Of a stretch of DNA of 64,000 nt, positions 10,826-39,762 are shown one piece after another. Made by a program: the position numbers and the translations under genes. Each line of letters opens with the position of its first letter. Position 1 is the first letter of the stretch. The notes beneath the pieces were generated by a model, which did not search any database, had not been told where the DNA came from, and worked only from the letters and a program-made list of their open reading frames with translations. The stretch comes from Massilia sp. 9096. Its GTDB lineage: Bacteria > Pseudomonadota > Gammaproteobacteria > Burkholderiales > Burkholderiaceae_D. The stretch lies in contig NZ_JQNN01000001.1 in the NCBI RefSeq assembly GCF_000745265.1, positions 2,170,001-2,234,000 on the forward strand, given 5' to 3'.

Positions 10826-11123
10826 CGCTCACGCTCCCGCCGCTGTCAGATGCACCCAGCATAGTCAGCCGCACGGCCCGGCATTTGCGCAGCGTCAGTC
10901 GCACGCGCGGAGGGCGAAAATTAAAAATGCGTAAATTCACTTGTGATGAAGATGATTTGTGGTAACAAAACACTATTTCTCTATGGAATGACCTGCTAGA
11001 CTGCTCGCTTCATCCGCCTGACATCAAACGTCATCAACATTCAGCCAGGCGACGACGGCAGCCGCGCCCAGATGCGGCGCCGTCACATGAGCAGCAAGCA
11101 ACAACAAGAACTAGGGAAATCAC

Positions 11124-15764: not shown

Positions 15765-19270
<3,506 letters not shown>

Positions 19271-24366: not shown

Positions 24367-24437
24367 AGGCGAGGACAGGAGTCGAACCTGTCTGGGCGGC
24401 GTTGCAAGCCGCCGCATAACCGCTTTGCTACCTCGCC
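24367..24437 (-). tRNA. tRNA-Cys (anticodon GCA), CCA not encoded
   Basis: Read on the minus strand, the 7-bp acceptor stem GGCGAGG/CCTCGCC closes a cloverleaf with the D-loop segment AGCAAAGCGGTTA, anticodon stem GCGGC/GCCGC around the loop TTGCAAC (GCA at positions 34-36), and the T-arm ACAGGTTCGACTCCTGT. The discriminator base is U, as expected for Cys. Length is 71 nt without CCA. The next bases after the discriminator are GAT, so CCA must be added by nucleotidyltransferase. This is unusual if the sister genes encode CCA and may reflect element insertion at the 3' end. Confidence 0.93.
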
Positions 24438-25222: not shown

Positions 25223-25251
25223 TTGCCTAACTGCAACTTACGACCTATAGT
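25223..25251 (+). promoter_or_regulatory. Sigma-70 promoter of the kinase/secretion-pilus operon
   Basis: TTGCCT (25223-25228), a 17-bp spacer, TATAGT (25246-25251). Four of six and five of six consensus bases match with ideal spacing. The predicted start is near 25258, giving a leader of about 40 nt to the ATG at 25298. It is the only good promoter seen between the DUF892 gene and the long co-directional run ending at 39615. Confidence 0.65.
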
Positions 25252-25297
25252 GGCAATCTCGCATCTAGAACCGGTTCGGCCGAGGATTGTCACAAGA

Positions 25298-27145
25298 ATG
25301 AAACTCAATCGCATCGGCATCGCCCTGATCGCGAGCGCTCTGCTCGTGATCGCGCTGGTCGTGAGCCTGCTCGTGATGCGTCAGCAGGACAGCCGCCTGG
25401 CCGAAGTGCGCGTGAAAGGCGCGGCCGTCGCGCGCTCGCTGAGCAGCCTGCCGATCGCCGCGCTCAAGGGTGGCGCCGGCAACGGCTTGCTGGGCACCCT
25501 GTTCGCCTACCATGACAATGGCGATTTCGCCTATGCCGCCGTGACCGATGCCGGCGGACGCACGCTGACCGACGTCGCCGGCCGCGGCACGCTGGTGCCG
25601 GGCGCGCCGCTGCCCGTCGACGCCGCCGGCTTCAACGAGCGCCTGCTCCCGGCAGCGGGCGGCATGCGTGCCATCCACGAATTCTACGGACCGCTGCTCG
25701 ACCGCAGCCAGGGCGCGGCGTTCGTGCGCGTCGGCTTCTACCAGCCGGCCTATGCGCTGCTGCCGCGCGACGTCTCCTTCCTGGCGCTGCTGGCGCTGAT
25801 GATGTTCATGCTGGTGCCTCTGATCTATATGGTCGTCAAGCGCGAAATGGCGCCGCTCGATGCGCTCGGGCGGCAGCTGCGCCAGCTCGCCGTGGAACAA
25901 AACAGGCAAAACGCACAGAACGCGCGGGCGCCCGGCCTGGAAGCCGCATGCGACGTGCGCGAGCTGGCGCACAGCCTGCAGTCCTGGCTGCAAACGACCG
26001 GCGCGCGCATCGCCGAACTCGAACACGCCAGCCTGAACGCCACCGCCGACAACCGCGTCCTGCAGTACGGCAGCAAGAAGCTGACCGCGGCCCTGCAGTC
26101 GCTGCCCGACGGCCTGCTGATGCTGGCGCCCGGCGGCGTGGTCAGCTTCGCCTCGGACAAGATCGAGCCACTGCTCGGCGTGCCGTTGAAGGACATCCTC
26201 GAGCAGCCGTTCGAGTTCTGGTGCCGCGACCCGGCGCTGCGCGCGCTGCTGGCGCGCTACGACGGCGAAGGCATCGAGGCCAGCCACGCGCTGCGTCCGG
26301 CCAGCGTCGATTTCACCTCGGCCAACGTCGAAGGCAAATACCTGTCGGCGACCGCCCAGCCGCTTACCGCCGCGCATGGCCAGATGGCGTTCGGCACCCT
26401 GGTGGTGGTGCGCGACGTCACCCGCGAGCAGCTCGCGCGCCAGGCCGGCAACGACTTCGTTGCCCACGTCTCGCACGAGCTGAAGTCGCCGCTGAACGTG
26501 ATCGGCATGTACGCCGAGACGCTGGCCGACGCCGACGACGAGTCGCTGCGGGTCGAATCGCTGAACGTGATCCAGGACGAGATCGAGCGGATGAACGCCC
26601 TGGTCGGCAACCTGCTCAACGTCAGCAAGCTCGAAACCGGCAGCATGAGCCCGGAGCGCAACCGCGTGCGCCTGGACGACCTGCTGCGCGACGCCTACGA
26701 CAACGCCCTGCCGCGCGCCACCGGCAAGCAGCTGCGCATGGCGCTGGACCTGCCGCGCGAACTGGAAGCGGTGGCGATCGACAAGGACCTGTTCCGCATC
26801 GCCCTGAACAACCTGCTGACCAACGCCATCAAATACAACCGCCCGGGCGGCAGCGTCACGCTGAGCGCGCACAACGAAGAGCACGAGATCGTCATCAAGG
26901 TCACCGACACCGGCATCGGCATCGGCCCGCAGGACCGCGAGCACGTGTTCGACAAGTTCTACCGCGCCGCTGAAACCGATGCCAGGACCGCGCGCGGCGG
27001 CCATGGCCTGGGCCTGTACCTGACCGCGCAGATCGTCGAGCTGCACCACGGCCGCGTGAGCGTGGACAGCGAGCTGGGAACCGGCAGCACCTTCTCCATC
27101 CACCTGAAGATCGCGCCGGCCGCCGCTGGTGTCGCGACACTATGA
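25298..27145 (+). CDS. Membrane sensor histidine kinase
   Basis: A 615-residue kinase. The ATG at 25298 was chosen because hydrophobic helix 1 begins at once (IGIALIASALLVIALVVSLL). A periplasmic sensor of about 140 residues is followed by a second helix near 170-190 (LALLALMMFMLVPLIYMVV), a coil, and a PAS-like domain (about 265-375). HisKA has DFVAHVSHELKSPLNVIGMY (phospho-His about 393), and HATPase has NNLLTNAIKYNRPGG, DTGIGIGPQD and GGHGLGLYLTAQI. All catalytic boxes are present. It overlaps the receiver gene by 4 bp and heads the operon that encodes the assembly ATPase and pseudopilins, so it probably sets the activity of that system. Confidence 0.92.
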   Translation: MKLNRIGIALIASALLVIALVVSLLVMRQQDSRLAEVRVKGAAVARSLSSLPIAALKGGAGNGLLGTLFAYHDNGDFAYAAVTDAGGRTLTDVAGRGTLVPGAPLPVDAAGFNERLLPAAGGMRAIHEFYGPLLDRSQGAAFVRVGFYQPAYALLPRDVSFLALLALMMFMLVPLIYMVVKREMAPLDALGRQLRQLAVEQNRQNAQNARAPGLEAACDVRELAHSLQSWLQTTGARIAELEHASLNATADNRVLQYGSKKLTAALQSLPDGLLMLAPGGVVSFASDKIEPLLGVPLKDILEQPFEFWCRDPALRALLARYDGEGIEASHALRPASVDFTSANVEGKYLSATAQPLTAAHGQMAFGTLVVVRDVTREQLARQAGNDFVAHVSHELKSPLNVIGMYAETLADADDESLRVESLNVIQDEIERMNALVGNLLNVSKLETGSMSPERNRVRLDDLLRDAYDNALPRATGKQLRMALDLPRELEAVAIDKDLFRIALNNLLTNAIKYNRPGGSVTLSAHNEEHEIVIKVTDTGIGIGPQDREHVFDKFYRAAETDARTARGGHGLGLYLTAQIVELHHGRVSVDSELGTGSTFSIHLKIAPAAAGVATL

Positions 27146-27513
27146 CGCACCATATCCTGCTGGTCGATGATGAGCCCCACGTCACGCGCGTGCTGCGCCT
27201 GACGCTGGAAAAACAAGGGTATTCGGTGACCGTCGCGCACGACGGCAACGCGGCCCTCGAGCGCATGAAGGAGCGCCTGCCCGACGTCCTGATCAGCGAC
27301 ATCCAGATGGACGGCATGGACGGCCGCACGCTGTGCCCGATCGCGCGCAAGACCTACCCGGACCACGATTTCCTGATCCTGGTGATGACCTCGATGACCG
27401 CGCTCGAGGAACGCAGCTGGGCGCGCGAATTGCCGAACACCGAGTTCCTCGAAAAACCCCTGAGTCCGCGCCAGCTGGTCGCGCGCCTGTCACGCCACTT
27501 CGGAGAATCATGA
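27142..27513 (+). CDS. Single-domain response regulator
   Basis: A 123-residue receiver domain only, CheY-like: acidic pair in ILLVDDEPHV, phospho-acceptor Asp53 (VLISDIQMDGMDG), Thr/Ser switch in VMTSMTALE and the Lys in FLEKPLSP. With no output domain it must act by protein contact or as a phosphorelay step. It overlaps both neighbours by ATGA, so kinase, receiver and HD-GYP protein are made stoichiometrically; the HD-GYP protein is the likely target (inference). Confidence 0.9.
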   Translation: MTHHILLVDDEPHVTRVLRLTLEKQGYSVTVAHDGNAALERMKERLPDVLISDIQMDGMDGRTLCPIARKTYPDHDFLILVMTSMTALEERSWARELPNTEFLEKPLSPRQLVARLSRHFGES

Positions 27514-29048
27514 GCTTCCCATCCAATCTCGAGTTCGCGCGCTACGCGCGCTGGCTGGGCCGCAGCGTCGGCCGCACCGACGGCATGGATGCGCTTGCGC
27601 TCATCGTCTGCGACGCCGCCGGACAAGCCGGCTGGAGCGCGCCCGAACACGCCGATCTGCCGACCTGGCTGGCGCAGTTGACGGCCGCCGGCTTTGCCTG
27701 GCCCTGCAACGGCGACGGCATGCAGCGCCACGATGCGGCGGACGCCACGCTGCTGTACGCGCCGGTGCACGCCAAGGGTCAGCGGATCGGCTACGCCGGC
27801 GTGCGCGTCGCGCGCGCGGACGCGGACGCGGAAGCGCCGTTCGCCTGGGATGCGCTGGCCGAAGGCCTGGAAGACGTGGCCGCGGCGATCGGCGACGAAG
27901 CGCGCATGCAGGGCGAACTCGACGCGATGGCCGGCGAGCTGTCCGACCGCTACGAAGAGCTGCACCTGGTGTATGCGATCGACCGCCAGATCCAGGAAAT
28001 GCCGACCGGTGAAGACCTGTTCGGCAACCTGCTCGAGAGCTGGGCCGACCACATGAACGCCGACGTCGCCGCCTTCATCAAGCCGGGCGAGAACCTGTGC
28101 GTGTCGGCCACCAACCTGTCCAAGCCGATCCACAACCTCGACCTGGTGCTGGTCGAGATGCGCGGCGACTTGTACCGCTTCGCGCACTCCTCGCGCCAGC
28201 CGATCGTGCTGAACGAAGCCGACGATCCGCGCCGCGCCTACATCTTCACCGACATGCCCTTCAAGATCCTGTGCTGCCCGGTGTTCCAGGACAAATCGGT
28301 GGTGGCGATCCTGGTGCTGCTGAACCACGCCGACAAGGAAGACTTCAGCAACAGCGACCGCAAGCTGGGCCAGGTGCTGGCCAATCACCTGTCCAGCCTG
28401 TCGCGCATGCACGGCATGCTGGCCGAGACCAGCAAGTTCAACCAGCAGATGGCGGCCGCGCTGATCGAGGCGGTCGAAGCCAAGGACCCGTACACGCGCG
28501 GCCACTCCGAGCGCGTGCACCACATCGCGATGGAGCTCGGGCGCGCGCTGCGCCTGCCCACTCGCGAGCTCGACAACCTGTTCTGGGGTTCGCTGCTGCA
28601 CGACGTCGGCAAGATCGGCATCCCGGACGCGGTGCTGTGCAAACCGGGCCGCCTGACGCGCGACGAATTCACCTTCATCATGGTGCACCCGGAGCGCAGC
28701 TACGAGATCCTGCGCCACATCGACCGCCTCAAGGGCGCGGTGCCGGGCGCGCGCCACCACCAGGAAAAGTTCGACGGCAGCGGCTACCCGCACGGCCTGG
28801 CCGGCGAGGACATCCCGTACGCGGCGCGCATCATCGCCGTGGCCGACACCTACGACTCGATCACCAGCTCGCGCGCCTACCGCGCCGGGCGCAGCCACGA
28901 AGTGGCGATGGCCGAGATCGTGCGCTGCGCCGGCACCCAGCTCGACCCGGACGTGGTCGCCGTGTTCGAGGCGATGTGCGCCAGGGAGCCGGACTGGATC
29001 GAACGCTTCGGCATCCAGCGTACCCCGGCGGCGGCCGAAGCCGCATGA
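27510..29048 (+). CDS. GAF-like/HD-GYP c-di-GMP phosphodiesterase
   Basis: A 512-residue cytosolic protein. Residues about 140-310 look like a GAF sensor (ELHLVYAIDRQIQEMPTGED onward). The HD-GYP domain follows at about 325-500: HSERVHHIAMELG, LLHDVGKIGIPD (His364-Asp365), HHQEKFDGSGYP and VADTYDSITSSRAYR. The HD and GYP signatures are intact; the usual HHE reads HQE here, a variant I believe is common in active members. It hydrolyses c-di-GMP. ATGA overlaps join it to the receiver gene before and the STAS-ATPase gene after. Since that ATPase has an MshEN-type N-domain, a local c-di-GMP switch is suggested. Confidence 0.92.
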   Translation: MSFPSNLEFARYARWLGRSVGRTDGMDALALIVCDAAGQAGWSAPEHADLPTWLAQLTAAGFAWPCNGDGMQRHDAADATLLYAPVHAKGQRIGYAGVRVARADADAEAPFAWDALAEGLEDVAAAIGDEARMQGELDAMAGELSDRYEELHLVYAIDRQIQEMPTGEDLFGNLLESWADHMNADVAAFIKPGENLCVSATNLSKPIHNLDLVLVEMRGDLYRFAHSSRQPIVLNEADDPRRAYIFTDMPFKILCCPVFQDKSVVAILVLLNHADKEDFSNSDRKLGQVLANHLSSLSRMHGMLAETSKFNQQMAAALIEAVEAKDPYTRGHSERVHHIAMELGRALRLPTRELDNLFWGSLLHDVGKIGIPDAVLCKPGRLTRDEFTFIMVHPERSYEILRHIDRLKGAVPGARHHQEKFDGSGYPHGLAGEDIPYAARIIAVADTYDSITSSRAYRAGRSHEVAMAEIVRCAGTQLDPDVVAVFEAMCAREPDWIERFGIQRTPAAAEAA

Positions 29049-31090
29049 GAGACAGCGCGGCAAGCGGCGGCGGCGCCGACATCACGCGCAGCCGCATCGG
29101 CGCGATGACCTACCTGGCGCCGGCGGCGGCCCTGGTGGCCGACGACGCCGTCACCGGCCTGCGCGAGGCGCTGGGCGAATGCATCGCGCGCCACCAGGTC
29201 GCGATCGTGATCGACCTGGCCAAGGTCACGCTGCTGTCCGGGCGCGCGCTGGAGATGCTGGTCGATTGCGCCGAGCGCCTGGCTGGCCTGGGCGGCTGGT
29301 TGAAACTCGCCTATCCGAGCCCGCTGCTGCAGGAAGTCCTGGCGGCCACCGGCCTGCAGGACCAGCTGCCGCTGTTCGAAGCGAGGGCAAGCGCGCCGAA
29401 GCGCGCGCACGCGCCCGGGGCCAAGCTGGGCGACCTGCTGGTCGAGCGCGGCGCCGCCACCGCCGAGCAGGTGGCCGAAGCCTTCCGCCTGCAGGACCAG
29501 ACCGGCAAGCGCATGGGCCTGATCATGGTCGAGAAGAAGTGGATCAGCGAAGCCGTGCTGTACGGCGCGCTGGCCGACCAGCTCGCCCTGCCCTACGCCA
29601 GCCTGCGCGCCGGCCTGTATGATCCGGCCGCGCTGGCGCTGCTCGAGCGCGACGTGGCGCGCCGCCTGAACGTGCTGCCGCTGTTCCTGGTGCGCGGCAC
29701 GCTGACCGTCGCCACCGCCGAGCCGCAGGCGATCCATGCCTTCGACGAGCTGCGCACCCGCACCGGCCTGAAGATCCGGGTCGCGGTGGCGCCGCCGACC
29801 GACATCCGGCGCCTGTCCGACGATGCCTATGGCGGCACGCTGCCCGAATTCATCTCGAGCGAAGCCAGCGACCTCGAGCTGATCGCCTCGACCATCCCCG
29901 ACGACTATACCCAGATCGACGAGATGGCCGGCGCCAGCCCGGTCATCAACATGGTCAACGCGGTGATCCAGCGCGCCATCCGCGACAGCGCCAGCGACGT
30001 CCACATCGAGATCTCGCGCAACCGCGCGCGCATCCGCCTGCGCATCGACGGCATCCTGTACGAGGTGATGTCGCCGAAAGTCGACCAGCACCCGGCGATC
30101 GTCTCGCGCCTGAAGGTGATGGCCAACCTCGACATCGCCGAACGGCGCCTGCCGCAGGACGGGCGCATCCAGGTCGCCACGCAGGGCCGCACGGTCGACC
30201 TGCGCTTCTCTTCCCTGCCCGGCATCTACGGCGAAAAGGTGGTGTTGCGCGTGCTCGACAAGAACCAGTCGATCCTCGACGTCGACAAGCTCGGCATGAA
30301 CGACGGCGCCGTCACCGGCTTCAAGCGCCTGCTGGGCCGCAGCCACGGGCTGATCCTGGTCACCGGTCCGACCGGCAGCGGCAAGACCACCAGCCTGTAC
30401 GCGGCGATCAGCCATCTCAAGAGCATCGAGAAGAACATCGTCACGATCGAGGACCCGGTCGAATACCAGCTCGACATCATCAACCAGAACCAGGTCAACG
30501 ACGCCATCGGCCTGAGCTTCCCGAAGATCCTCAAGCACGTGCTGCGCCAGGACCCCGACATCATCATGATCGGCGAGGTGCGCGACCGCCAGACCGCCGA
30601 GATCGCGGTGCAGGCGGCGCTGACCGGCCACCTGGTGCTCACCACCCTGCACACCAACGACACCCTGGGCGCGGTTTCGCGCCTGGTCGAGATGGGCGTC
30701 GAGCCCTACCTGCTGTCGTCGGCCCTGATCGGCGTGGTGGCGCAGCGCCTGGTGCGGCGCGTGTGCCAGGGCTGCCGCACCAGCTACCTGGCCACGCCGG
30801 AGCAGGCGCAGGCCTACCGCTGGCGCGGCGCGGGCGACCTGCGCCTGGTGCGCGGACGCGGCTGCCCGGCCTGCTACGACTCAGGCTACAAGGGCCGCAT
30901 GGGCATCTACGAGATGCTCGAGGTCGGCCCCGAGCTGCAGCGCATGATCGTCGCCAACGCCAGCAAGGACCAGATGAGCGCCCATGTGACGGCCTGCGGC
31001 CACCACGACCTGTACGCCGACGGCATGGCGCGCGCTTTCGACGGCCACACCACGCCCGAAGAAATCGCGCGCGTGGTCCATTCGCTGTAA
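29045..31090 (+). CDS. STAS-MshEN-GspE/PilB assembly ATPase fusion
   Basis: A 681-residue fusion. Residues about 15-110 resemble a STAS domain (VAIVIDLAKVTLLSGRALEM, LKLAYPSPLLQEVLAATG). Residues about 125-270 match the T2SSE_N/MshEN pattern (KLGDLLVERGAATAEQV, then MGLIMVEKKWISEAVLYGAL), the type that binds c-di-GMP in MshE. The hexameric ATPase follows: Walker A GPTGSGKTTS at about 441-450, Asp box TIEDPVEYQL, Walker B DPDIIMIGEVRD, His box LTGHLVLTTLHTN, and a CxxC pair each side (CQGC, CPAC) for zinc. It powers pseudopilus or pilus assembly at the inner membrane. STAS domains normally take part in anti-sigma or phospho-switching, so an N-terminal STAS on this ATPase is unusual. The preceding HD-GYP gene overlaps by ATGA. 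Confidence 0.92.
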   Translation: MRDSAASGGGADITRSRIGAMTYLAPAAALVADDAVTGLREALGECIARHQVAIVIDLAKVTLLSGRALEMLVDCAERLAGLGGWLKLAYPSPLLQEVLAATGLQDQLPLFEARASAPKRAHAPGAKLGDLLVERGAATAEQVAEAFRLQDQTGKRMGLIMVEKKWISEAVLYGALADQLALPYASLRAGLYDPAALALLERDVARRLNVLPLFLVRGTLTVATAEPQAIHAFDELRTRTGLKIRVAVAPPTDIRRLSDDAYGGTLPEFISSEASDLELIASTIPDDYTQIDEMAGASPVINMVNAVIQRAIRDSASDVHIEISRNRARIRLRIDGILYEVMSPKVDQHPAIVSRLKVMANLDIAERRLPQDGRIQVATQGRTVDLRFSSLPGIYGEKVVLRVLDKNQSILDVDKLGMNDGAVTGFKRLLGRSHGLILVTGPTGSGKTTSLYAAISHLKSIEKNIVTIEDPVEYQLDIINQNQVNDAIGLSFPKILKHVLRQDPDIIMIGEVRDRQTAEIAVQAALTGHLVLTTLHTNDTLGAVSRLVEMGVEPYLLSSALIGVVAQRLVRRVCQGCRTSYLATPEQAQAYRWRGAGDLRLVRGRGCPACYDSGYKGRMGIYEMLEVGPELQRMIVANASKDQMSAHVTACGHHDLYADGMARAFDGHTTPEEIARVVHSL

Positions 31091-31111
31091 GCCCACCGAG
31101 GAGCGCGCACC

Positions 31112-32248
31112 ATGCCGATCGAACTCGACGTATCCAGCGACGCCGCCACGGGCGCGCGCGCGGGTGGGCCCGTACGCGCGGGTGCGCGCCTGACGCTGGG
31201 CGAACGGGCGCCGGGCGTGCGCGAGCGCATGCTGTTCACGGAGCGCCTGGCGCTGCTGCTCGACACCGGCGTGCCGCTGCACACCGGCCTGCAATCGCTG
31301 CTCGAGCAAATGAAGCCGAACGAACAGCCGCGCCTGCGCGCGATGATCGCGGCCATGGCCGACGACATCCTGGCCGGCGAGCGCTTCTCGCATGCGCTGG
31401 GGCGGCATCCGCTGTTCCCGCCCACCTACGTCAACCTGGTCGCGGCCGGCGAGGCCGGCGGCTTCCTGCCCGACGTGCTGACCCAGCTGGTCGACATGGA
31501 CGAAAAGGAGGATCGCCTGCGCCGCACCGTGGTCTCGGCGCTGTCCTATCCGCTTTTCCTGCTGGCCTTCTCGGTGATCGTCGTGCTGTTCATCCTGATC
31601 TGGGTATTCCCCAAGTTTGCCGTGATGTTCGAGCAGATCCGCGACCAGCTGCCGATCACCACGCGCATCCTGCTGTCGATCAGTACCTCCCTCACCCAGC
31701 ACGGCACGCTGGTCGGCGCGGGCGCCGCCGCCCTGGTCGTCCTGGGCTGGGTGCTGGCACGCCGGCCGGACGTGCGCGCCGCGCTGGACCGCGCCACGCT
31801 GCGCGTACCGGTACTGCGCGACATCTTCGCGCAAATCTACCTGACCCGGCTGCTGCGCGTGATGGGCATGTCGCTGGAGCGCGGCGTCACCATCCTGGCC
31901 ACGCTGGAGGCCTGCCGCGGCATCGTCAGGAACGCCGACGTGCAGCGCTTCATCCTCGAGCTGGAAACCGACGTCACCGAGGGCAAGGGCATCGCCGCCG
32001 GTTTCCAGAAAAGCCCGTTCGTACCACCCTCGGTGCGCCAGATGGTCGCGACCGGCGAAGCCACCGGCACCCTCGGCCGCGTGATGGGCCGGGTGGCCGA
32101 TTCGTTCGACCGCGATTTGACCAAGAAGCTCAACCAGCTGTCGAAACTGGCCGAACCGGTCATGCTGATGGTGATGGGCGCGATGGTCGGCACGCTCGTG
32201 AGCTCGCTGATTTTGCCGATTTTTAAGCTGTCGCGCGCCGTCCACTAA
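31112..32248 (+). CDS. gspF: GspF/PilC-type inner-membrane platform protein
   Basis: A 378-residue polytopic protein made of two repeated GspF domains (about 30-155 and 235-360), with the conserved LALLLDTGVPLHTGLQSLLE and LLRVMGMSLERGVTILATL openings and hydrophobic helices near residues 145-170, 200-215 and 350-372. It forms the cytoplasmic-membrane platform that couples the ATPase to the pseudopilus. A GAGGAG ribosome site precedes the ATG. It lies 21 bp after the ATPase gene. Confidence 0.92.
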   Translation: MPIELDVSSDAATGARAGGPVRAGARLTLGERAPGVRERMLFTERLALLLDTGVPLHTGLQSLLEQMKPNEQPRLRAMIAAMADDILAGERFSHALGRHPLFPPTYVNLVAAGEAGGFLPDVLTQLVDMDEKEDRLRRTVVSALSYPLFLLAFSVIVVLFILIWVFPKFAVMFEQIRDQLPITTRILLSISTSLTQHGTLVGAGAAALVVLGWVLARRPDVRAALDRATLRVPVLRDIFAQIYLTRLLRVMGMSLERGVTILATLEACRGIVRNADVQRFILELETDVTEGKGIAAGFQKSPFVPPSVRQMVATGEATGTLGRVMGRVADSFDRDLTKKLNQLSKLAEPVMLMVMGAMVGTLVSSLILPIFKLSRAVH

Positions 32249-32273
32249 GTTTTCTGTGAGAAATCAGCCACAG

Positions 32274-32289
32274 TTGGCACAGCGCTTGA
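32274..32289 (+). promoter_or_regulatory. Possible degenerate sigma-54 element before the major pseudopilin gene
   Basis: TGGCAC at 32275-32280, five bases, then TTGA at 32286-32289. The -24 half is perfect but the -12 half has GA instead of the near-invariant GC. Pilin genes are often RpoN-dependent, hence the mention. The rest of the 146-bp gap holds short dyads (ACACA/TGTGT at 32306-32320 and GAATT/AATTC near 32330-32343) and a TTGACA with no matching -10. Confidence 0.3.
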
Positions 32290-32394
32290 GAATTCAGCAA
32301 TTTTGACACAGGCTTTGTGTTACCCTGCGGAATTAATAAATTCCTTTAACAAAGTCCTCCCCGGCTTTGTCACCCACGAGAGAACAAACCAGCC

Positions 32395-32949
32395 ATGACC
32401 ACCCTGTCCATGCGCCGCAGCCGCGGCTTTACCCTGATCGAATTGCTGATCGTCGTCATCATCATCGCGATCCTGGCGGCGATTGCGATTCCGCAGTTTT
32501 CGTCGAGTACGTCGGATGCGCAGTCCGCGGCGCTGGATGCCAATCTGGCGACGCTGCGCACCGCGATCGAACAGTACAAGGTCCAGCACAACAATACTTA
32601 CCCGGGCGCGACCACTTCGACCGGTACATGCCCCGGAACGTCCAAAAACTATAAAGGCGACCTCGACTCCGGCGACGCATTCAGCGCCCAGCTGCAGTAC
32701 TATACGAATGCCGCTGGCGTAGCCTGTGACGTCGCCAACGCCGATTTCAAATACGGTCCTTACCTGCGCCAAGGTGTACCGGCCGAGCCGGTCAAGAGCC
32801 AGGTAGCCGTCAGTGTCAAAAACACGGGCGCAGTCCTCACCGCCGACAACAGCACCGGCTGGATGTTCGACGACAAGTCCGGTCAGTTCATCATGAACAA
32901 CAGCGCGATGGACACCAACAGCCCACAGCGCGCCTGGTCGGCTCACTGA
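32395..32949 (+). CDS. gspG: Major pseudopilin, GspG/PilA-like
   Basis: A 184-residue prepilin. The class III leader MTTLSMRRSRG is cleaved before FTLIELLIVVIIIAILAAIA, with Glu5 of the mature protein present. The C-terminal globular domain has two Cys residues in the variable part (GTCPGTS, GVACDV) that may pair, and a GspG-like ALDANLATLRTAIEQYKVQH helix. It should be the main shaft subunit. No prepilin peptidase gene is in this window, so processing depends on one elsewhere. The 146-bp upstream gap may give this gene extra expression. Confidence 0.9.
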   Translation: MTTLSMRRSRGFTLIELLIVVIIIAILAAIAIPQFSSSTSDAQSAALDANLATLRTAIEQYKVQHNNTYPGATTSTGTCPGTSKNYKGDLDSGDAFSAQLQYYTNAAGVACDVANADFKYGPYLRQGVPAEPVKSQVAVSVKNTGAVLTADNSTGWMFDDKSGQFIMNNSAMDTNSPQRAWSAH

Positions 32950-32966
32950 TCGACCGACGTCCTCGT

Positions 32967-33556
32967 ATGCCTTGCCGCCGCGACGGGTTCACCCTGGCCG
33001 AAATGCTGGTCACCTGCGCCGTGCTGGCCGTTGCCGCGGCGGTCGCGCTGCCCACCAGCCAGCCGGCCGTGGAGGTCCGCGCCGGCGCGGCCGCCAGCGA
33101 AGTCGCGCGCGCGCTACGCTTCGCGCGCGAGGACGCGATGCGCACCGGCGTAACGCGCATGGTCAAATGCGACATGGCGAACAACACGCTCACGGTCTAC
33201 GTGCCCGACACCAGCGGCAACGTCGCCACCGCGCTGAACGATCCCTTGACCAAGATGAACTACGCGCTCGCGCTCGGCCAGCCGCGCGCCGGCGTGAGCG
33301 CGACGCTGCGCACTTGCAGCTTCCAGTTCAGCGACAACACCCAGGCCGCCGCGGTCGCCTTCGACCCCAGCGGCAATCCGGTGCGCGGCATCGCTACCAC
33401 CTCGGCGCCTGCCCCGGCCCGACCCCGCCCGCGCCGCCCCCCGCGCCTGGCGCGACCAACGTCGCGACGCTCAACAGCGGTTCCATCCAGCTGATCCTGG
33501 GCAGGCTGACGCGTACGATAACCATCGACGCCATCGGCCGGGTGACCGCGTCCTGA
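32967..33556 (+). pseudogene. GspH/FimT-like pseudopilin with -1 frameshift near its C-terminus
   Basis: The frame from 32967 reads MPCRRDGFTLAEMLVTCAVL, a prepilin leader and helix (cleavage before FTLAE), then an ALRFAREDAMRTGVTRMVKC segment typical of GspH. At about 33410 it turns into an Arg/Pro-rich shadow ending at 33494. The real ending lies in another frame: PTPPAPPPAPGATNVATLN then ITIDAIGRVTAS with stop at 33554-33556, 2 bp before the next gene. One missing C in a CCCC run near 33413, inside a Pro-rich linker, restores the full protein of about 196 residues. It is either a true lesion, a slippage site or a sequencing error. Truncation would remove the last strands of the pseudopilin fold. 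Confidence 0.75.
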
Positions 33557-33558
33557 CC

Positions 33559-33999
33559 ATGGTAAATCTGGCATGGCGTGGGCCTGCGCGGCGCTCGCAA
33601 TCGGGCTTCACGCTGTTCGAGGCGCTGCTCGCAATACTCCTGCTGGGCACCTGTTTGATCCCGGCCTCGTATGCGCTGCGCGACGCGCTGCACGGCCCGG
33701 CCGACAACGCCGCCGCGGCGCGCAATCTCGATTGCGTCACCAACCTGATGGAAACCGTGCTGGCCTCGCCCTATAGCATGCTGTACGGCCTGGCCACGTC
33801 CGATGGGGCCTCGGCCTACCCGATCCCGAACGAGACCGGCTGCCCGGCGCGCCAGGTCAAGATCCAGCTCTACGGCAACGCCGTGACCAAGGTGATCGGC
33901 CCCGGTGGCACCAGCCCTTACCTGCTGTACGTCAGCGTGTCGCTGGCCGATCCCGCCGACGGCAACCCGTACACGCTGAGCACGCTGGTAGCGCGATGA
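33559..33999 (+). CDS. Minor pseudopilin, GspI/PilV-like
   Basis: A 146-residue prepilin with leader MVNLAWRGPARRSQSG cleaved before FTLFEALLAILLLGTCLIPA. The short globular part has Cys in NLDCVTNLMETVLASPYS and ETGCPARQ, which may form a disulfide. NLMETV resembles the GspI/PilV helix. It starts 2 bp after the restored stop of the GspH-like gene and overlaps the next gene by ATGA. It should belong to the tip complex. Confidence 0.82.
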   Translation: MVNLAWRGPARRSQSGFTLFEALLAILLLGTCLIPASYALRDALHGPADNAAAARNLDCVTNLMETVLASPYSMLYGLATSDGASAYPIPNETGCPARQVKIQLYGNAVTKVIGPGGTSPYLLYVSVSLADPADGNPYTLSTLVAR

Positions 34000-34508
34000 A
34001 GCCCACCGTGCGCCGCTGCGACCACGGCTTGAGTCTGGTCGAACTCTTGATGGCGCTGGCGATCAGCGCGGTGCTGCTGCTGCCGCTGGCCGCGCTGCTG
34101 CAGGACGCGATGGAGAGCGGCGCCGTCGGGCGCAGCGCGCTCGATCTCAACGGCGACCTGCGCTTCGCGCTCGACCGCGTCGCCGCCCGCGTGACGACCG
34201 CGGCGCGGCCGGCGCAGTTGCAGCCACAGGCACCGCCGCCGCAATTTCCACCCTATGGGGACACGCCGGCCGTCGCCGCCTGGATCGCGCCGTTCGCCTA
34301 CAGCGTGTCGGGAACCAGCCTGGTAGAAACCGACCCGGGCGTGACGCCCACGCGCACCAGCGTCATCGCCGCCAATGTCGCCTCCTTCAAGCTGTCGGCC
34401 GTCGATACCACCTACGGCCAGGGGCTGGTCAGGATCGAGCTGACGCTGGCTGCCAACGGCGCGAGCGCCAGCGGCGCGCGCACGGTGCGCCTGTGGGGTC
34501 CGCAATGA
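33996..34508 (+). CDS. Minor pseudopilin, GspJ/PilW-like
   Basis: A 170-residue prepilin with leader ending DHG and helix LSLVELLMALAISAVLLLPL (Glu5 kept). DLNGDLRFALDRVAARVTT fits the GspJ/PilW N-terminal helix. Pro/Gln-rich and Thr/Val segments follow. ATGA overlaps on both sides mark it as part of a coupled minor-pseudopilin set. Confidence 0.82.
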   Translation: MKPTVRRCDHGLSLVELLMALAISAVLLLPLAALLQDAMESGAVGRSALDLNGDLRFALDRVAARVTTAARPAQLQPQAPPPQFPPYGDTPAVAAWIAPFAYSVSGTSLVETDPGVTPTRTSVIAANVASFKLSAVDTTYGQGLVRIELTLAANGASASGARTVRLWGPQ

Positions 34509-35512
34509 TGCGTACACCCGTACGCCACCCCATGCGCCACCGCGCGCCTCGCCTGGCGCGCCGCCAGTCCGGCGCTCTGCTGCTGAGCGTGGTCCTGGTG
34601 CTGGCGATCCTGGCCGCGCTGGCCTTCACTCTCAGCCGCGGCGCCGGCGCCGGCGCGCACACGGTCGCGTCGGATTACGAGCGGCGCCGCATCGCCTACC
34701 TGCTGCAAGCCGGCACCGAAGCGTTCAAGTGGAGCAACGAGGTCAAGTGCGACACCAAAGCCGTCAGCTTCGCCCTGGACGGCGTCACGGTCACCACCGG
34801 AACCGGCACCAAGGGCAAACCGGCCAATTACGTCACCGTGACGGCGAATGCCTTTATCGGCGACGGCCTCAAGGGCGTGAACACGAGCACGCCCACCAGC
34901 CCGGGCGGCAGCCTGACGCGCACGGTCGCCCTGTATGACCTGAGCAGCAGCAACTTCGAAAACAAAGATGCGGTCAACGCATCCGACACGACGCTCTCGT
35001 ATGGCAACATGGTACCGGTGGGCGGCGCTTTCACGCTGGGTTTGTCGTCAGGTACGCTGGGAACACAAAATGCGCTGCTCTCGTGGACACTTGCCGAAAT
35101 CCCTCAGAACTTGCAGATCATGTCGGCGCTGCTGACCCTGACGGCCAGCGGCACCGCCGCGCCGACGGTCAACGTCCACCGCATGCTGACTCAATGGACC
35201 GAAGCGAGCGCCACCTGGACCGTGGCGCGCGGCGCATTGCTGACCGGGTACACCGGCTGGAACAGCCCGGGCGGCGACTACGCCGCCACCCCGGCCGCCA
35301 GCGCCACCCCGGTCGTCGCCGGCGGCAACTCGACCGTCCAGTTCGACGTCACCGCCCTGGTCGACGGCTGGATCAGTGGCCTGTACTACAACGACGGTCT
35401 GGTACTGCGCCTGCCCATTGCCGACCAGAGCATGACCTTCAACAGTTACGAAGCGCTCAATACCAAGACGCGCCCGACCCTGCACGTGAGTTTTGCCAAA
35501 GCATGCGGATGA
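34505..35512 (+). CDS. Pilus-tip-like protein with DNRLRE domain (in GspK/PilX position)
   Basis: A 335-residue protein. Its start (ATG at 34505) overlaps the previous stop. The N-terminus RRQSGALLLSVVLVLAILAA is a prepilin-like or PilX/GspK-like signal-anchor, with ASDYERRRIAYLLQAGTEAF as the usual following helix. Instead of the GspK SAM-like domains, residues about 140-330 form a DNRLRE-type beta-domain: TLTASGTAAPTVNVHRMLTQ, WTEASATWTVA, GWNSPGGDY, FDVTALVDGWISG and GLVLRLPIADQ. DNRLRE domains occur in secreted wall- or carbohydrate-binding proteins. A tip pseudopilin with an adhesive or binding domain is a reasonable inference. Confidence 0.8.
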   Translation: MMRTPVRHPMRHRAPRLARRQSGALLLSVVLVLAILAALAFTLSRGAGAGAHTVASDYERRRIAYLLQAGTEAFKWSNEVKCDTKAVSFALDGVTVTTGTGTKGKPANYVTVTANAFIGDGLKGVNTSTPTSPGGSLTRTVALYDLSSSNFENKDAVNASDTTLSYGNMVPVGGAFTLGLSSGTLGTQNALLSWTLAEIPQNLQIMSALLTLTASGTAAPTVNVHRMLTQWTEASATWTVARGALLTGYTGWNSPGGDYAATPAASATPVVAGGNSTVQFDVTALVDGWISGLYYNDGLVLRLPIADQSMTFNSYEALNTKTRPTLHVSFAKACG

Positions 35513-35567
35513 TGAACACACACCTGCAGCGCACATGCACATGCGCGCGACACTCGGGAGACGCCGC

Positions 35568-36677
35568 ATGAGCCTGCGCAACCTGAGCGTCCGGCTGCGC
35601 GCCGGCTTTCCGGCACGGCGGCCCGGCCGCGCCATGCCGCCGATCGGCGCCGACTTCGCCGCCCAGTCGCTGAACCTGGTGCAGGCCACGCCCGTCGAGG
35701 GCGGCTGGCGCCTGCAGGCGGCCGCCTTGGCGCCCTACCCGATCCCACGCGCCGAGCTGCTGGCGGCGCCGAACGAGCTGGCGCGCTTCGTCGCGGGCGT
35801 GCTGGCGTCCGCACCGTTCCAGGGGCGGCGCGTGGTGTCGGCCCTGCCGCCGGGCGAAGTGCGGATCCTGCCCTTGAGCGTGCAGCTGGCGCAGGGCCAG
35901 TCGGAAGCCCAGGCGGTGGCCAAGGCGGCCGTCGAACAGCTCGGCGTCGCCCCGAGCGGCACGGTGCTCGACTACTACCAGGTGCGCGGCGCCGACGGCG
36001 AAGGCGCGAGCCGCCAGGTGCTGGTCGCGGCCGCCCAGGAGGCGCGCGTGCTGGACTACCTGGCGATGCTGGAAGCCGCGCGCCTCACCCCGGTCGCGCT
36101 CGACATCGGCCCGGCCGCGATCGCGCGCCTGCTGGCCACGCTGCACGGGGCCGACATCGGCCAGTCGACGATGCTGCTGAACTTCGGCTCGGCCAAGAGC
36201 TACGTCACGGTGATCTGGGGGCGGCGCCTGATGCTGGATCGCGAGATCGACTTCGGCGAGGAGCAGCTGGCCGACGCGGTCGCGCGCGCGCTCGAACTGC
36301 CGCGCGCCACCGCGACCAGCCTGCTGCGCGAGCACGGCATCGGCGCCCGCGCGGCCGAGGGCGCGCATGCGGAGCTGCGCCGCGCGATCCACGAAGTGCT
36401 GCACCCGGCGTGCCTGGCGCTGGCCGACGAGCTGGCCCACACCCAGGTGTACGTCGCCTCGCGCACGCGCGGCAGCACGGTCAGCCGGGTGTACCTGAAC
36501 GGCAGCCTGGCGCGCTATCCCGGCATCCAGGCGCGCATCGGCGAACTGATCGACGTGCCGGTGCACCTGCTCGATCCGTTCGCCGCCTTCGGGGGTGCGG
36601 GTGCGGACAAGGACGGCATCGGCCGCGCGCTCGCGCTGGCGGCCGGCCTGGCATTGCGGAGCGACGCGAATGGCTGA
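35568..36677 (+). CDS. PilM-like actin-fold assembly protein
   Basis: A 369-residue protein. The ATG at 35568 was chosen over upstream ATGs because GGGAG precedes it. It has a PilM/GspL-cytoplasmic-like actin fold: IGADFAAQSLNLVQ near the start, SALPPGEVRILPLSVQLAQG, ALDIGPAAIARLL, TMLLNFGSAKSYVTVIWGRR and VYLNGSLARYPG (phosphate loops). PilM binds the N-terminus of PilN under the inner membrane. The 8-bp overlap with the PilN-like gene supports this. Confidence 0.85.
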   Translation: MSLRNLSVRLRAGFPARRPGRAMPPIGADFAAQSLNLVQATPVEGGWRLQAAALAPYPIPRAELLAAPNELARFVAGVLASAPFQGRRVVSALPPGEVRILPLSVQLAQGQSEAQAVAKAAVEQLGVAPSGTVLDYYQVRGADGEGASRQVLVAAAQEARVLDYLAMLEAARLTPVALDIGPAAIARLLATLHGADIGQSTMLLNFGSAKSYVTVIWGRRLMLDREIDFGEEQLADAVARALELPRATATSLLREHGIGARAAEGAHAELRRAIHEVLHPACLALADELAHTQVYVASRTRGSTVSRVYLNGSLARYPGIQARIGELIDVPVHLLDPFAAFGGAGADKDGIGRALALAAGLALRSDANG

Positions 36678-37323
36678 CATCGACATGATCCCGCGCAGCT
36701 ACCGCGAGGCGGTGCGCGTGCGCCGCACCGTGCGCCGCGCCGGCGCCGCGCTGGCCTGCGTGGCCGTGCTCGGCATCGGTGCGGTCGGCGGCGTGCGTTG
36801 GCGTGGCGCTGCGCTCGAGCGCCAGGCGGCGGCGCTGGAAGCCGCGGCCAGCCGAGCCCAGGCGGACCGTACGCGTGACGCCACGCTGCAGGCGGCCGGC
36901 ATGCGCCTGCAGCGTGGCGTCACCGCCTTGCACGCGCTGCGCCGCGAGGGCGAACTCGAGGCCTTCAGCCGCGCGCTCGACGCGGCGCTGACCGACCAGG
37001 TCTGGCTGACCAACTTGACGCTGCAGCGCGATGCCCAGGGTACGCCCGCCAAGGACGCGCCGGCCGATCCGGCGGTCGAGCAGGTGGCGCCCGCCGATGC
37101 CGCCGACGGCGCGCCGACCTGGCGCCTGGCCAGCACGATCGAGATCAGCGGCGAGGCGACCGACTACGGTGCCGTCACCGCCTTCCTGGCCACCCTCGCC
37201 CGCCAGAACGGCGTCAGCGGTTTGCGCCTGGTCGGCAGCAGCGCCGGCGCCGACGGCGGGGCAATCCAGTTCCAGGCCACGGGTTTCCTCGCGCGCCCCA
37301 AAGACACCATGAGCATGCCATGA
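36670..37323 (+). CDS. PilN-like inner-membrane alignment protein
   Basis: A 217-residue bitopic protein. The short cytoplasmic start MADIDMIPRSYREAVRVR contains an IPRSYR motif, akin to the INLLPYR segment of PilN that docks on PilM. One helix follows at about 22-42, then a coiled coil (ALERQAAALEAAASRAQADR) and a ferredoxin-like periplasmic domain (TIEISGEATDYGAVTAFLAT). It overlaps both the PilM-like and PilO-like genes. Confidence 0.82.
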   Translation: MADIDMIPRSYREAVRVRRTVRRAGAALACVAVLGIGAVGGVRWRGAALERQAAALEAAASRAQADRTRDATLQAAGMRLQRGVTALHALRREGELEAFSRALDAALTDQVWLTNLTLQRDAQGTPAKDAPADPAVEQVAPADAADGAPTWRLASTIEISGEATDYGAVTAFLATLARQNGVSGLRLVGSSAGADGGAIQFQATGFLARPKDTMSMP

Positions 37324-37841
37324 GCCTATCGAACTTCCAGCGCAGCCTGGCCGCGATGCCGGCGCGCCAATTGAACCTGGTGGCCGTCGGCGCGGTCGCG
37401 ATCGTCGCCGCGCTGGCCTTGAGCGCCCTGCGCGCGCCGCTGTCCAACCTGCGCGCGCAGGGGGCGCGCCTGGCCGCATTGAAAGCCGCGCCGCAGTTCG
37501 CGTCGAGTACGCCGCCGGCGCCGGCCGCACCGCCGAGACCGGTCGTGATGCCGACGCCACTGGCCCTGATCGCTGCAGTGAGCGCGAGCGCGCGCGCGGC
37601 CGGCGTCACCGTCGCCAGCGCGGTACCGGGCGCGCAAAACACGGTCGCCGGGCTGCGCCGGCAGACGCTGGACGTCGAGGCCAGCGGCGGCTACGGCGCT
37701 ATCCTGGACTGGATCGCCGCCATTGAAGCGAAGCAGCCGGCGGTCGGCGTGGTGCGCCTGGAGCTCAAGCCTGCGCCGGACCAACCACGGCGCCAGGTGC
37801 ACCTGCAGCTGGCCGCGTATTCGACCGGGAGCCAGCCATGA
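37320..37841 (+). CDS. PilO/GspM-like alignment protein
   Basis: A 173-residue bitopic protein with one membrane helix (about 20-40, LNLVAVGAVAIVAALALSAL), a short coil, a Pro/Ala-rich linker (STPPAPAAPPRPVV) and a C-terminal ferredoxin-like domain (LALIAAVSASARAAGVTVAS, YGAILDWIAAIEAKQPAV). The layout matches GspM and PilO. ATGA overlaps tie it to the genes on both sides. Confidence 0.78.
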   Translation: MSLSNFQRSLAAMPARQLNLVAVGAVAIVAALALSALRAPLSNLRAQGARLAALKAAPQFASSTPPAPAAPPRPVVMPTPLALIAAVSASARAAGVTVASAVPGAQNTVAGLRRQTLDVEASGGYGAILDWIAAIEAKQPAVGVVRLELKPAPDQPRRQVHLQLAAYSTGSQP

Positions 37842-38224
37842 TCCGCGCCTTGAGCACGGCCGCGCTGCTGTGCGCCTGCGCTGCGCCAGCAGCCGGCGCC
37901 AATACCGCCAATGCGGCCGATGCGGCCGGCGCGCACGCCACGGCGCGGCGCGATCCATTCGCGCGGCCGGCGGCCTCGATCCCAGCGGCGCCCGCGCCGG
38001 CCGCCGCCGAAGACGCCGCGCCGCCGCCGCCGCCGGCCCCGTTGCACCTGCGCGCGTTGATCCTGAACGGGGCGCGCTCGCTGGCCAGCATCGATGGCGA
38101 CGTCGTCGCCGCCGGCGAGCGCGCACGCGACTACCAGGTGCTGCGCATCGACGCACGTGGCGTGCTGGTCGCGCGCGCAGGCAAGCAGGAACTGCTGTCA
38201 ATGAACGAAAAGGAAAAGCAATGA
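37838..38224 (+). CDS. PilP/GspC-like periplasmic connector
   Basis: A 128-residue protein with a signal peptide ending near PAAGA, a RRDPFARP motif (the DPF motif common in PilP and GspC-type proteins), a long Pro/Ala linker and a compact homology-region-like domain (LHLRALILNGARSLASIDGD, YQVLRIDARGVLVARAGKQE). It should link the inner-membrane complex to the secretin N-domain. It is shorter than GspC because it has no membrane anchor of its own beyond the signal. Confidence 0.75.
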   Translation: MIRALSTAALLCACAAPAAGANTANAADAAGAHATARRDPFARPAASIPAAPAPAAAEDAAPPPPPAPLHLRALILNGARSLASIDGDVVAAGERARDYQVLRIDARGVLVARAGKQELLSMNEKEKQ

Positions 38225-39615
38225 AGGTTTGGCGAACACTCCTGGCCGGCTGCCTGCTGGCGCCGGCCGCTCATGGGGCGGGCGCAGACGCGGTCCAGAG
38301 CGTGGCCCAGGCCGCCGCGGCGCCTGCGGTCGCGGTGGCAGTAGCGACCGCACCTGCAGCGGCCACCGCAGCCGCGGCGGACACGATGTCGTACACCTTC
38401 CGCGACACGCCGATCGCCGAGCTGTTCAACATGCTTTCGCGTACCGGTCACGTCAACATCGTGCTGGCGCGCGGCGTCGCCGGCAACGTCTCGATCAACC
38501 TGTACGACCTGACCGTGCGCCAGGCGATCGAGGCGGTCGCCGAGGCTGGCGGCTACGTCGTCACCGAGCGCGCCGGCGGCTTCTTCATCGCCGACCCGAA
38601 GGCGATCCAGAAGGACAGCGCGGCCCCGGGACAGCAGGTGCGCTCGCTGAAGGTGCGCTACATCGACCTGAAGAAAGCCGGCGAGATCCTGGCGCGCCAG
38701 CTCGGTCCCGGCGGCACCGTCACCACGCTCGACCAGAGCCGCACGCTGGTGGTGGAAGCCAACGAGGCTGGCCTGGCGCGCGCGGCGGGCGTGCTGCGCG
38801 AAATCGACCGGCCGCCGCAACAGATCCTGATCGAAGCGAAGATCCTGGAGATCACGCTCAACCAGGACGAGAACTTCGGCGTCGACTGGAACCGGATCGT
38901 CCATTCGGACGGACCGGTCACGGTCGGCGCGACCGGCCTGGCGGCCAGCACCGGCCCGCGCTTTTTCGCAAACGTCATCACCAACAGCCTGGAAGCGCAC
39001 CTGACGGCGCTGTCCAACAAGGGCCGCGTGCACACGCTGGCCACGCCGCGCCTGCTGGCGCTGGAAGACCAGGAAGCGACCACCAACGTCGGCGACGAGA
39101 TCGGCTACAAGCTCACCACCACGATCAACAACGTTACCACCGAGTCGATCCAGTTCCTGCAGACCGGCGTGATCCTGCGCGTGACGCCGTCGATCGACGT
39201 CGACGGCCGCATCCTGATGCGCGTGCACCCGGAAGTCAGCTCGGGCTCGATCGCCTCGGGCATCCCATCCAAGAACACGACCGAGGTCAGCACCCAGCTG
39301 GTCGCGGCCGACGGCCAGGCGGTGCTGATCGGCGGCCTGCTCAAGGCCAGCAGCAACTACCAGCGCCAGGGCGTGCCGCTGTTGTCCGACATCCCGCTGG
39401 TCGGCCGCGTGTTCTCGAACACCGCCGACACCGGCGCCTCGACCGAGACCATCGTCGTGATCACGCCGCACATCGTGCCGGCCGGGAGCGCCCTGATCGA
39501 CGCCGCCAGCGCGCAAAAGGTCGAACAGAGCGAGCGCGTGCTCGGCCTGCGTAACGACGTCCTCGACCGCAAGATCGAGCTGATCGCGCCGCCGCGCACC
39601 GAGTCCGTGCGATAA
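38221..39615 (+). CDS. Short secretin, PilQ/GspD-like
   Basis: A 464-residue exported protein. After the signal peptide (cleavage near AHGAGA) comes an Ala/Val-rich segment, an STN/N0-like domain (MSYTFRDTPIAELFNMLSRT) with a further N-domain (SLKVRYIDLKKAGEILARQL), and the secretin barrel from about residue 200. The barrel contains ILIEAKILEITLNQDENFGV, ATPRLLALEDQEATTNVGDE and GVPLLSDIPLVGRVFSNT. Only one or two N-domains are present, so it is short for GspD (usually about 650) and closer to minimal secretins. It forms the outer-membrane pore. It is the last gene of the run; the following GGCGCC-rich inverted repeat may end transcription. Confidence 0.9.
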   Translation: MKVWRTLLAGCLLAPAAHGAGADAVQSVAQAAAAPAVAVAVATAPAAATAAAADTMSYTFRDTPIAELFNMLSRTGHVNIVLARGVAGNVSINLYDLTVRQAIEAVAEAGGYVVTERAGGFFIADPKAIQKDSAAPGQQVRSLKVRYIDLKKAGEILARQLGPGGTVTTLDQSRTLVVEANEAGLARAAGVLREIDRPPQQILIEAKILEITLNQDENFGVDWNRIVHSDGPVTVGATGLAASTGPRFFANVITNSLEAHLTALSNKGRVHTLATPRLLALEDQEATTNVGDEIGYKLTTTINNVTTESIQFLQTGVILRVTPSIDVDGRILMRVHPEVSSGSIASGIPSKNTTEVSTQLVAADGQAVLIGGLLKASSNYQRQGVPLLSDIPLVGRVFSNTADTGASTETIVVITPHIVPAGSALIDAASAQKVEQSERVLGLRNDVLDRKIELIAPPRTESVR

Positions 39616-39762
39616 GGCGCCTGGAGCGGCGCCGCGCCGCGCCGATGGCGCACACCCGCGCGCATCTGTGCGGCGCAGTACGGAACGCGGCGGCCGCAGC
39701 GTTATAATGACCTCATCATTTCCGGCCGCGCGCGCCACCCAGGCTTGCGGGCAATCCAGACC

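Follow-up and report, generated by a model that had tools for sequence, protein, structure and literature searches.

What kind of machine is encoded by the 15 same-strand genes that span positions 25298-39615 of a 64,000-nucleotide stretch of the Massilia sp. 9096 genome (contig NZ_JQNN01000001.1, positions 2170001-2234000; the whole stretch is called the window below)? A first-pass annotation of this window had read them as a hybrid of a type II secretion system (T2SS) and type IV pili (T4P), expressed from one promoter and tuned by a sensory module and cyclic di-GMP (c-di-GMP). Judged by its sequences, the gene cassette is no T2SS/T4P chimera but a type IV filament lineage in its own right, which has been inherited together with its sensor. 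We consider it probable that it builds an adhesive filament that ends in a lectin, is gated by c-di-GMP and receives two-component input from the same cassette, the circuit proposed below included.

Gene order, components and lineage

All cassette genes lie on the plus strand, in the order kinase, receiver, GAF-HD-GYP, STAS-MshEN-ATPase (E), GspF (F), the pilin genes G, H, I, J and K, PilM/N/O/P-like genes and secretin. Order, co-direction and overlaps were as first described, with 4-base ATGA overlaps at eight of the 14 gene junctions, one further 8-base overlap and intergenic gaps of 21 (E-F), 146 (F-G), 17 (G-H), 64 (H-I) and 55 bases (K-PilM), and the domain assignments of that description hold in profile searches. 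The same order recurs from Oxalobacteraceae to two Nitrospirota (Nitrospirae) metagenome-assembled genomes (MAGs), which rules out chance. A scan of a named genome collection yielded 35 loci, 28 of which (L057-L084) comprise the cassette or a cut-off part of it and belong mostly to Massilia and relatives (Pseudoduganella, Duganella and others), besides further proteobacterial MAGs and the two Nitrospirota MAGs; L085-L091 carry other ATPases. Together with L161-L172, the 28 form the 40 locus rows referred to below. In 23 of these rows, blastp recovered the full set of 15 window genes, while in the remaining rows small fast-evolving genes were missed at blastp sensitivity, genes were lacking or contig ends cut the cassette; right-size frames were often called where blastp missed cassette genes. 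Among the matches listed, a full-length STAS-MshEN-ATPase with 77-100% identity was present in at least 18 of 294 same-family genomes (own genome included), namely 16 of the 27 from the same genus and two others; the next family matches listed had at most 42% identity and mostly began at MshEN. At class level, matches with E no higher than 1e-140 were obtained in 14 of 369 genomes (own included); apart from the own genome, the matching genomes number 13 and come from 11 families. Among the loci with other ATPases, L085, on a Planctomycetota contig, has two tandem GspE-like frames of 567 and 381 amino acids (9986-12900).

A single locus here combines a GspE/PilB ATPase with class III prepilins and a GspF platform, the defining set of the type IV filament superfamily, and the cassette is placed within it, but for no tested class are the thresholds reached. 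The ATPase (29045..31090; 681 amino acids; Pfam STAS, MshEN and T2SSE) reached 563.4 bits with GspE (cut-off 630.25; host T2SS GspE 695.4) and 534.1 bits with PilB (cut-off 675.65; host PilB 794.7), and the 47.4 bits obtained with the TadA/CpaF-type model TIGR03819, far below its cut-off of 373.15, place it outside the ATPase type of the Tad pilus. The GspF/PilC-type inner-membrane platform (31112..32248; Pfam T2SSF, 167.5 bits) scored 280.9 bits with GspF (cut-off 424). Highest for the short secretin (38221..39615; 464 amino acids; Pfam Secretin, 137.4 bits, and Secretin_N) was PilQ with 194.8 bits (cut-off 284.35; host PilQ 512.4), compared to 170.1 bits with GspD (cut-off 351.35; host T2SS GspD 609.9) and 139.7 bits with MshL (cut-off 250.2; host's own MshL 248.2). 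The GspL slot is occupied by separate genes for PilM-like (35568..36677, alternative start 35634; PilM_2, 78.8 bits; TIGR01175, 86.8 bits vs cut-off 133) and PilN-like (36670..37323; PilN, 29.6 bits, cut-off 22.8) alignment proteins. These are followed by a PilO/GspM-like alignment protein (37320..37841; T2SSM_b, 23.4 bits, cut-off 21.7) and a small protein without a Pfam match (37838..38224), considered PilP/GspC-like on account of its position and a weak GspC_delta match (24.1 bits vs cut-off 150, E 2.7e-5). As claimed in the first-pass annotation, no match to a prepilin peptidase or PilT turned up among the products of the 15 genes; elsewhere in the genome one A24_N-type peptidase and several PilT-size ATPase frames are present, and the latter could serve the cassette.

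For the phylogenies, GspE, PilB, GspD, PilQ and MshL labels were taken from curated NCBIfam models and MshE rows were labelled by locus. The cassette ATPases (23 rows) fell on one side of a branch with a Shimodaira-Hasegawa-like approximate likelihood ratio test (SH-aLRT) value of 100, apart from 19 GspE rows (97, and 100 in a second tree), 16 PilB rows (100) and five of the six ATPases of MshL loci, which grouped with three 'other' rows (100); the sixth, L173, formed a long branch elsewhere. One clade was likewise obtained for the cassette secretins (15 rows, SH-aLRT 99), apart from 21 MshL (99), 14 PilQ (100) and 14 GspD (100) secretins, as well as for the cassette kinases (39 rows, 99), apart from 19 own-genome paralogues, the best-scoring of 66 other own-genome matches. 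This kinase clade and its pairs that mirror the ATPase tree (L083 with L084, L079 with L082, L164 with L170 and L167 with L169) indicate that the kinase has travelled with the machine. ATPase, secretin and kinase thus each follow one lineage, which argues for a separate lineage and leaves the term 'hybrid' unsupported. No sister group was singled out.

Several results speak against membership in T2SS (ATPase and secretin under the GspE and GspD cut-offs and outside the T2SS clades), in type IVa pili (under the PilB and PilQ cut-offs and outside both clades) and in the mannose-sensitive haemagglutinin (MSHA) class (no MshM-type match, MshL score under cut-off, separate clades). The host genome itself has six high-scoring GspE/PilB-type ATPases and six secretins, which include a T2SS, a type IVa pilus, the MSHA-type locus L020 and the unclassified L021 (G000:C1:448000-467900). 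The latter comprises, with names assigned by eye, a pilin, GspF, an ATPase, three small PilM/N/O-position genes, a 699-amino-acid secretin and more pilins. Its ATPase lay on a long branch that joined none of the small groups with support, and its secretin likewise formed a long branch; L021 is possibly another unassigned filament system.

Five prepilin genes lie together at 32395-35512. The GspG/PilA-like major pilin (32395..32949; N_methyl, 37.8 bits; GspG, 49.4 bits, below the cut-off of 88.85) is followed by a GspH-like minor pilin (32967..33494; N_methyl; GspH, 21.3 bits, cut-off 21), minor pilins in the GspI/PilV (33559..33999; N_methyl, 22.1 bits; weak PilV match) and GspJ/PilW positions (33996..34508; N_methyl, 26.4 bits), and K (34505..35512), a minor pilin of GspK/PilX type and predicted tip lectin, whose C-terminal part (residues ~146-334) is a DNRLRE/CBM96 carbohydrate-binding domain. 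GspK had been reported as absent, but the DNRLRE protein K follows J and has, in our reading of the alignment, an N-terminus of GspK/PilX type (Gly, a hydrophobic run and no Glu+5); with this N-terminus in the GspK position, GspK is not missing. Structure prediction of K gave a pilin and a carbohydrate-binding domain with fold matches, so that its CBM96/DNRLRE module was recovered by sequence model and fold. CBM96 was present in five of six K proteins scanned from other loci, Kelch, Laminin_G_3 and Golvesin_C were each found in one K of these other loci, and two of seven K relatives found carry the Joint Genome Institute name PilX. Tip pilins that are modular or enlarged have been described before (PMC9934059, PMC6561018). 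A rearranged cassette was observed in L169, where the H-K pilin genes lie upstream of the kinase and G still follows GspF.

The strongest competitor is a divergent T2SS, in which a short pseudopilus would pump exoproteins through the secretin and the carbohydrate-binding module of K would be a cargo-recognition or plug domain; we regard it as unlikely. It is in line with the best scores of ATPase and platform, GspE (563 bits) and GspF (281 bits), but these, as well as that of GspD, are under the cut-offs, while the host T2SS passes those of GspE and GspD. The cassette order E-F-G-H-I-J-K-L-M-N-D resembles that of the xps operon, the Xps-type T2SS gene order in Xanthomonas, and weak GspC_delta and GspM matches are present, yet the GspL slot is split into PilM- and PilN-like genes and the 464-amino-acid secretin scores highest with PilQ. 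A tree joining the cassette ATPases with T2SS was not rejected by the approximately unbiased test (p-AU 0.217), although the ATPase and secretin clades are separate from T2SS. CBM96 on K, in the window and in most other K proteins scanned, also speaks against this explanation; K points to adhesion, and specific support for a secretion role was not found.

Less likely still is an MSHA-type variant with the same order, an added signalling block and loss of MshM and MshN. The annotation had named, as what would count against it, an ATPase and secretin that fall within a characterised class, for example MSHA, and share its gene order; the resemblance in order stood, in that the cassette from ATPase to secretin resembles the host MSHA locus L020 (by eye, only ATPase and secretin being identified otherwise), while the placement did not, as the trees set both the MshE-locus ATPases (five of six) and the MshL secretins apart. 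L020 also has a large gene (1113 amino acids) in the MshQ position and both motors fit the MshEN motif at 12 of 12 positions, but the MshL score of the cassette is far from the cut-off that the host MshL nearly reaches, and the host has both systems. Moreover, no MshM-type AAA protein was present among the profile matches of the 15 products, and the final MSHA model makes mshA, E, G, L and M mandatory (PMC6668835).

Sensory block and c-di-GMP receptor domain

The cassette begins with a sensor histidine kinase (25298..27145), in which a Cache/PAS-like domain flanked by two long helices is followed by PAS, HisKA and HATPase domains. Next are a stand-alone receiver (REC; 27142..27513; Pfam Response_reg, 79.6 bits), which follows the kinase in the cassettes, and a GAF-HD-GYP protein (27510..29048; Pfam HD_5, 129.4 bits, and GAF; PDB relatives 5z7c and 4mcw), a predicted c-di-GMP phosphodiesterase with the motifs HDVGK and HQEKFDGSGYP. 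Kinase, receiver and phosphodiesterase adjoin upstream of the ATPase in 37 of the 40 rows (36 of 39 if L062 and L171, whose contigs both measure 730422 bases, are one record, as is probable). Wherever both genes were found, the estimated kinase-receiver spacing was between -7 and +43 bases. The third slot has an HD-GYP motif in 28 of 37 rows and an EAL-type DDFG motif in nine of 37; in L161, the sole EAL-type row checked with Pfam, the protein is GAF-GGDEF-EAL. That this slot accommodates two unrelated phosphodiesterase folds suggests that its task is to break down c-di-GMP. The REC and HD-GYP proteins match opposite ends of the REC-HD-GYP model NF053512, below cut-off. Between K and PilM, a GGDEF protein is encoded in 14 of 34 loci (Pfam-confirmed in L069, L081 and L164), while L162 has three tandem, mutually similar genes of ~280 amino acids there (16115-18898), HDOD-like by eye.

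The ATPase carries the MshEN motif pair at residues 127-179 with 24-5-24 spacing. The MshEN c-di-GMP receptor motif consists of a pair of RLG...Q motifs, each 24 residues long, with five residues between them (PMC5013675), and in V. cholerae MshE-dependent pilus extension is stimulated by high c-di-GMP (PMC9815625). Eight of the 12 key residues of the window MshEN are identical and four conservative, and NF053729 was matched with 53.4 bits (cut-off 38). Conservative classes were fitted at 10-12 of 12 key positions in 40 of 41 rows, compared to 12 in host MshE and five each in the host GspE, PilB and L021 ATPases. The MshEN of the motor thus fits the receptor motif as defined and is a predicted c-di-GMP receptor. 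The STAS region of the window ATPase retrieved 67 proteins, every one listed with MshEN and T2SSE. In the Nitrospirota loci L083 and L084, STAS is a separate gene (111 amino acids) between phosphodiesterase and ATPase that overlaps the ATPase gene, which means that the Pseudomonadota fusion joins two neighbours.

That the sensory genes are mere neighbours, acting on c-di-GMP elsewhere in the cell, appears improbable: the receiver has no output domain and three of 40 rows do not have the full block, but kinase and receiver are closely spaced, the kinase clade is co-inherited with the machine, two phosphodiesterase types share one slot and the motor carries the MshEN domain. The first-pass view of a distinct envelope machine with two-component and c-di-GMP input is upheld as far as sequence can do so, by the cassette's own clades and its co-inherited kinase.

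Promoter-like elements and flanking features

The first-pass annotation named a single promoter. Position 25223, given there as the start, is a -35-like hexamer and no gene start, the kinase beginning at 25298. The corresponding element P1 (TTGCCT-17-TATAGT, 25223..25251, plus strand, nine of 12 matches) is not above chance in the window alone (one P1-type site found vs 0.8 expected). Among 22 loci compared (the window and 21 of L057-L078), however, TATAGT was present at most 120 bases 5' of the kinase in 20 (shuffle mean 0.6, maximum 3). A second, extended -10-like element, P2 (TGTTACCCT, 32318..32326, plus strand), lies in the AT-rich F-G gap and precedes the major pilin; its pattern TGnTA(C/A)YC occurred in 19 of the 22 F-G gaps (shuffle mean 0.7, maximum 4). 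Conservation of both predicted elements across loci makes two promoters likely, the second of them for the major pilin.

Upstream of the cassette, a tRNA-Cys gene is located on the minus strand (24367-24437), and the gene 3' of the secretin encodes a FUSC-type protein. A minus-strand open frame of 1260 amino acids (38131-41913), antisense to the secretin and FUSC genes, is most likely a shadow frame from high-GC codon usage.

Proposed working and relation to known systems

What the sequences establish are the genes with their conserved order, the separate clades, the MshEN motif and a predicted lectin fold; the route of the signal, the tip position, the filament length and the ligand are inferred. 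In the circuit that we propose, a single dedicated type IV filament machine would extend a filament of G-type pilin capped by an H-I-J-K complex, which may place the CBM96/DNRLRE domain of K at the tip. The inner-membrane motor would be brought into line with the secretin by the PilM/N/O/P-like proteins, the tip would be presented through that secretin, and the pilins would be matured by the genome's shared peptidase. The Cache-like domain of the kinase may sense an envelope-side ligand, upon which the kinase would phosphorylate the stand-alone receiver, and this in turn may set the phosphodiesterase by contact, the two acting like a REC-HD-GYP protein divided in two. Whether the ATPase extends the filament would then depend on local c-di-GMP, read via MshEN, and in some lineages a cyclase would join the phosphodiesterase in setting the level of c-di-GMP. 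STAS may serve as the site where receiver or phosphodiesterase docks and is thereby coupled to the motor, which is the weakest step. The output would be regulated adhesion, presumably to acidic polysaccharides, and not bulk protein secretion. More tentatively, and with a confidence that falls a little short of even, we suggest that Pseudomonadota and Nitrospirota share a class of type IV filament machine, so far without a name, in which a whole decision circuit is included (envelope sensor kinase, stand-alone receiver, interchangeable c-di-GMP enzyme and a STAS-MshEN motor reading receiver state and c-di-GMP) and which fires a lectin-tipped filament at acidic polysaccharides only when the sensor gives the signal.

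Several observations weigh against this circuit. Part or all of the sensory block is lacking in L077, L163 and L168, indicating that it is dispensable in some loci, and the kinases of L077, L080, L163, L166, L167 and L169 align with that of the window only from residue 155 or later, so the sensor part varies. The window phosphodiesterase has HQE where PmGH (4mcw) has HHE, Gln replacing the second His of HHExxDGxGYP, which makes its activity less than certain. No diguanylate cyclase is encoded in the window's cassette, which would depend on c-di-GMP made elsewhere. The four conservative replacements in the window MshEN are Lys for Arg and Val and Phe for two Leu in motif 1 and Met for one Leu in motif 2. 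In SpoIIAA-type STAS switches, a phosphorylatable serine is expected at the Ser58 position; in a hand-read alignment without SpoIIAA, the corresponding residue is Gly in the window and variable elsewhere. Finally, the K of L167 was without any Pfam match.

No description of the cassette was found in literature searches aimed at it or its parts, and its family line is seemingly without a name so far. Denise et al. 2019 left 884 type IV filament systems 'generic' (PMC6668835). Like these, the cassette has pilins, a platform and an ATPase for which none of the specific models fits, and its lineage may be among them; the accessible sections of that paper mention neither the cassette nor its sensory block. 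MshEN-based c-di-GMP gating of pilus motors is already established (PMC5013675, PMC9815625). Less clear is how a single filament receives a signal of its own, and the cassette bears on that question, with sensor, relay, c-di-GMP enzyme, receiver domain, motor and predicted carbohydrate-binding tip in one block kept together across two phyla. Massilia, to which most named loci belong, would be one genus in which local second-messenger signalling to one machine could be tested directly, and the circuit would supply a hypothesis for genes now labelled only 'PilB' and 'PilX'.

Among known systems, the MSHA pilus (Vibrio, and L020 of the host) likewise combines an MshEN extension ATPase, GspF, pilins, a large tip-position protein, PilM/N/O/P-like genes and a secretin in one locus, whereas the cassette has its own ATPase and secretin clades, STAS, the kinase-receiver-phosphodiesterase block and a DNRLRE tip pilin, and no MshM-type gene was seen in it. 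With T2SS, the cassette shares the E-F-G-H-I-J-K order and the models of its top raw scores (GspE and GspF), and it differs by scores under the equivalog cut-offs, by a separate PilM and PilN, a short secretin and a glycan-binding-type K, and by its own clade. As in K, a pilin is fused to a lectin in PilC of Streptococcus sanguinis, which binds anionic glycans and is modelled at the tip (PMC9934059). PilC belongs to a monoderm T4P and has a concanavalin A (ConA)-type lectin; its likeness to K is one of design. Regulators of REC-HD-GYP type, such as the response regulator RpfG, have in one protein what the cassette encodes in two genes: its REC and HD-GYP proteins correspond to the two ends of the NosR model (NF053512), below cut-off, but the phosphodiesterase carries GAF and is of EAL type in nine of 37 rows.

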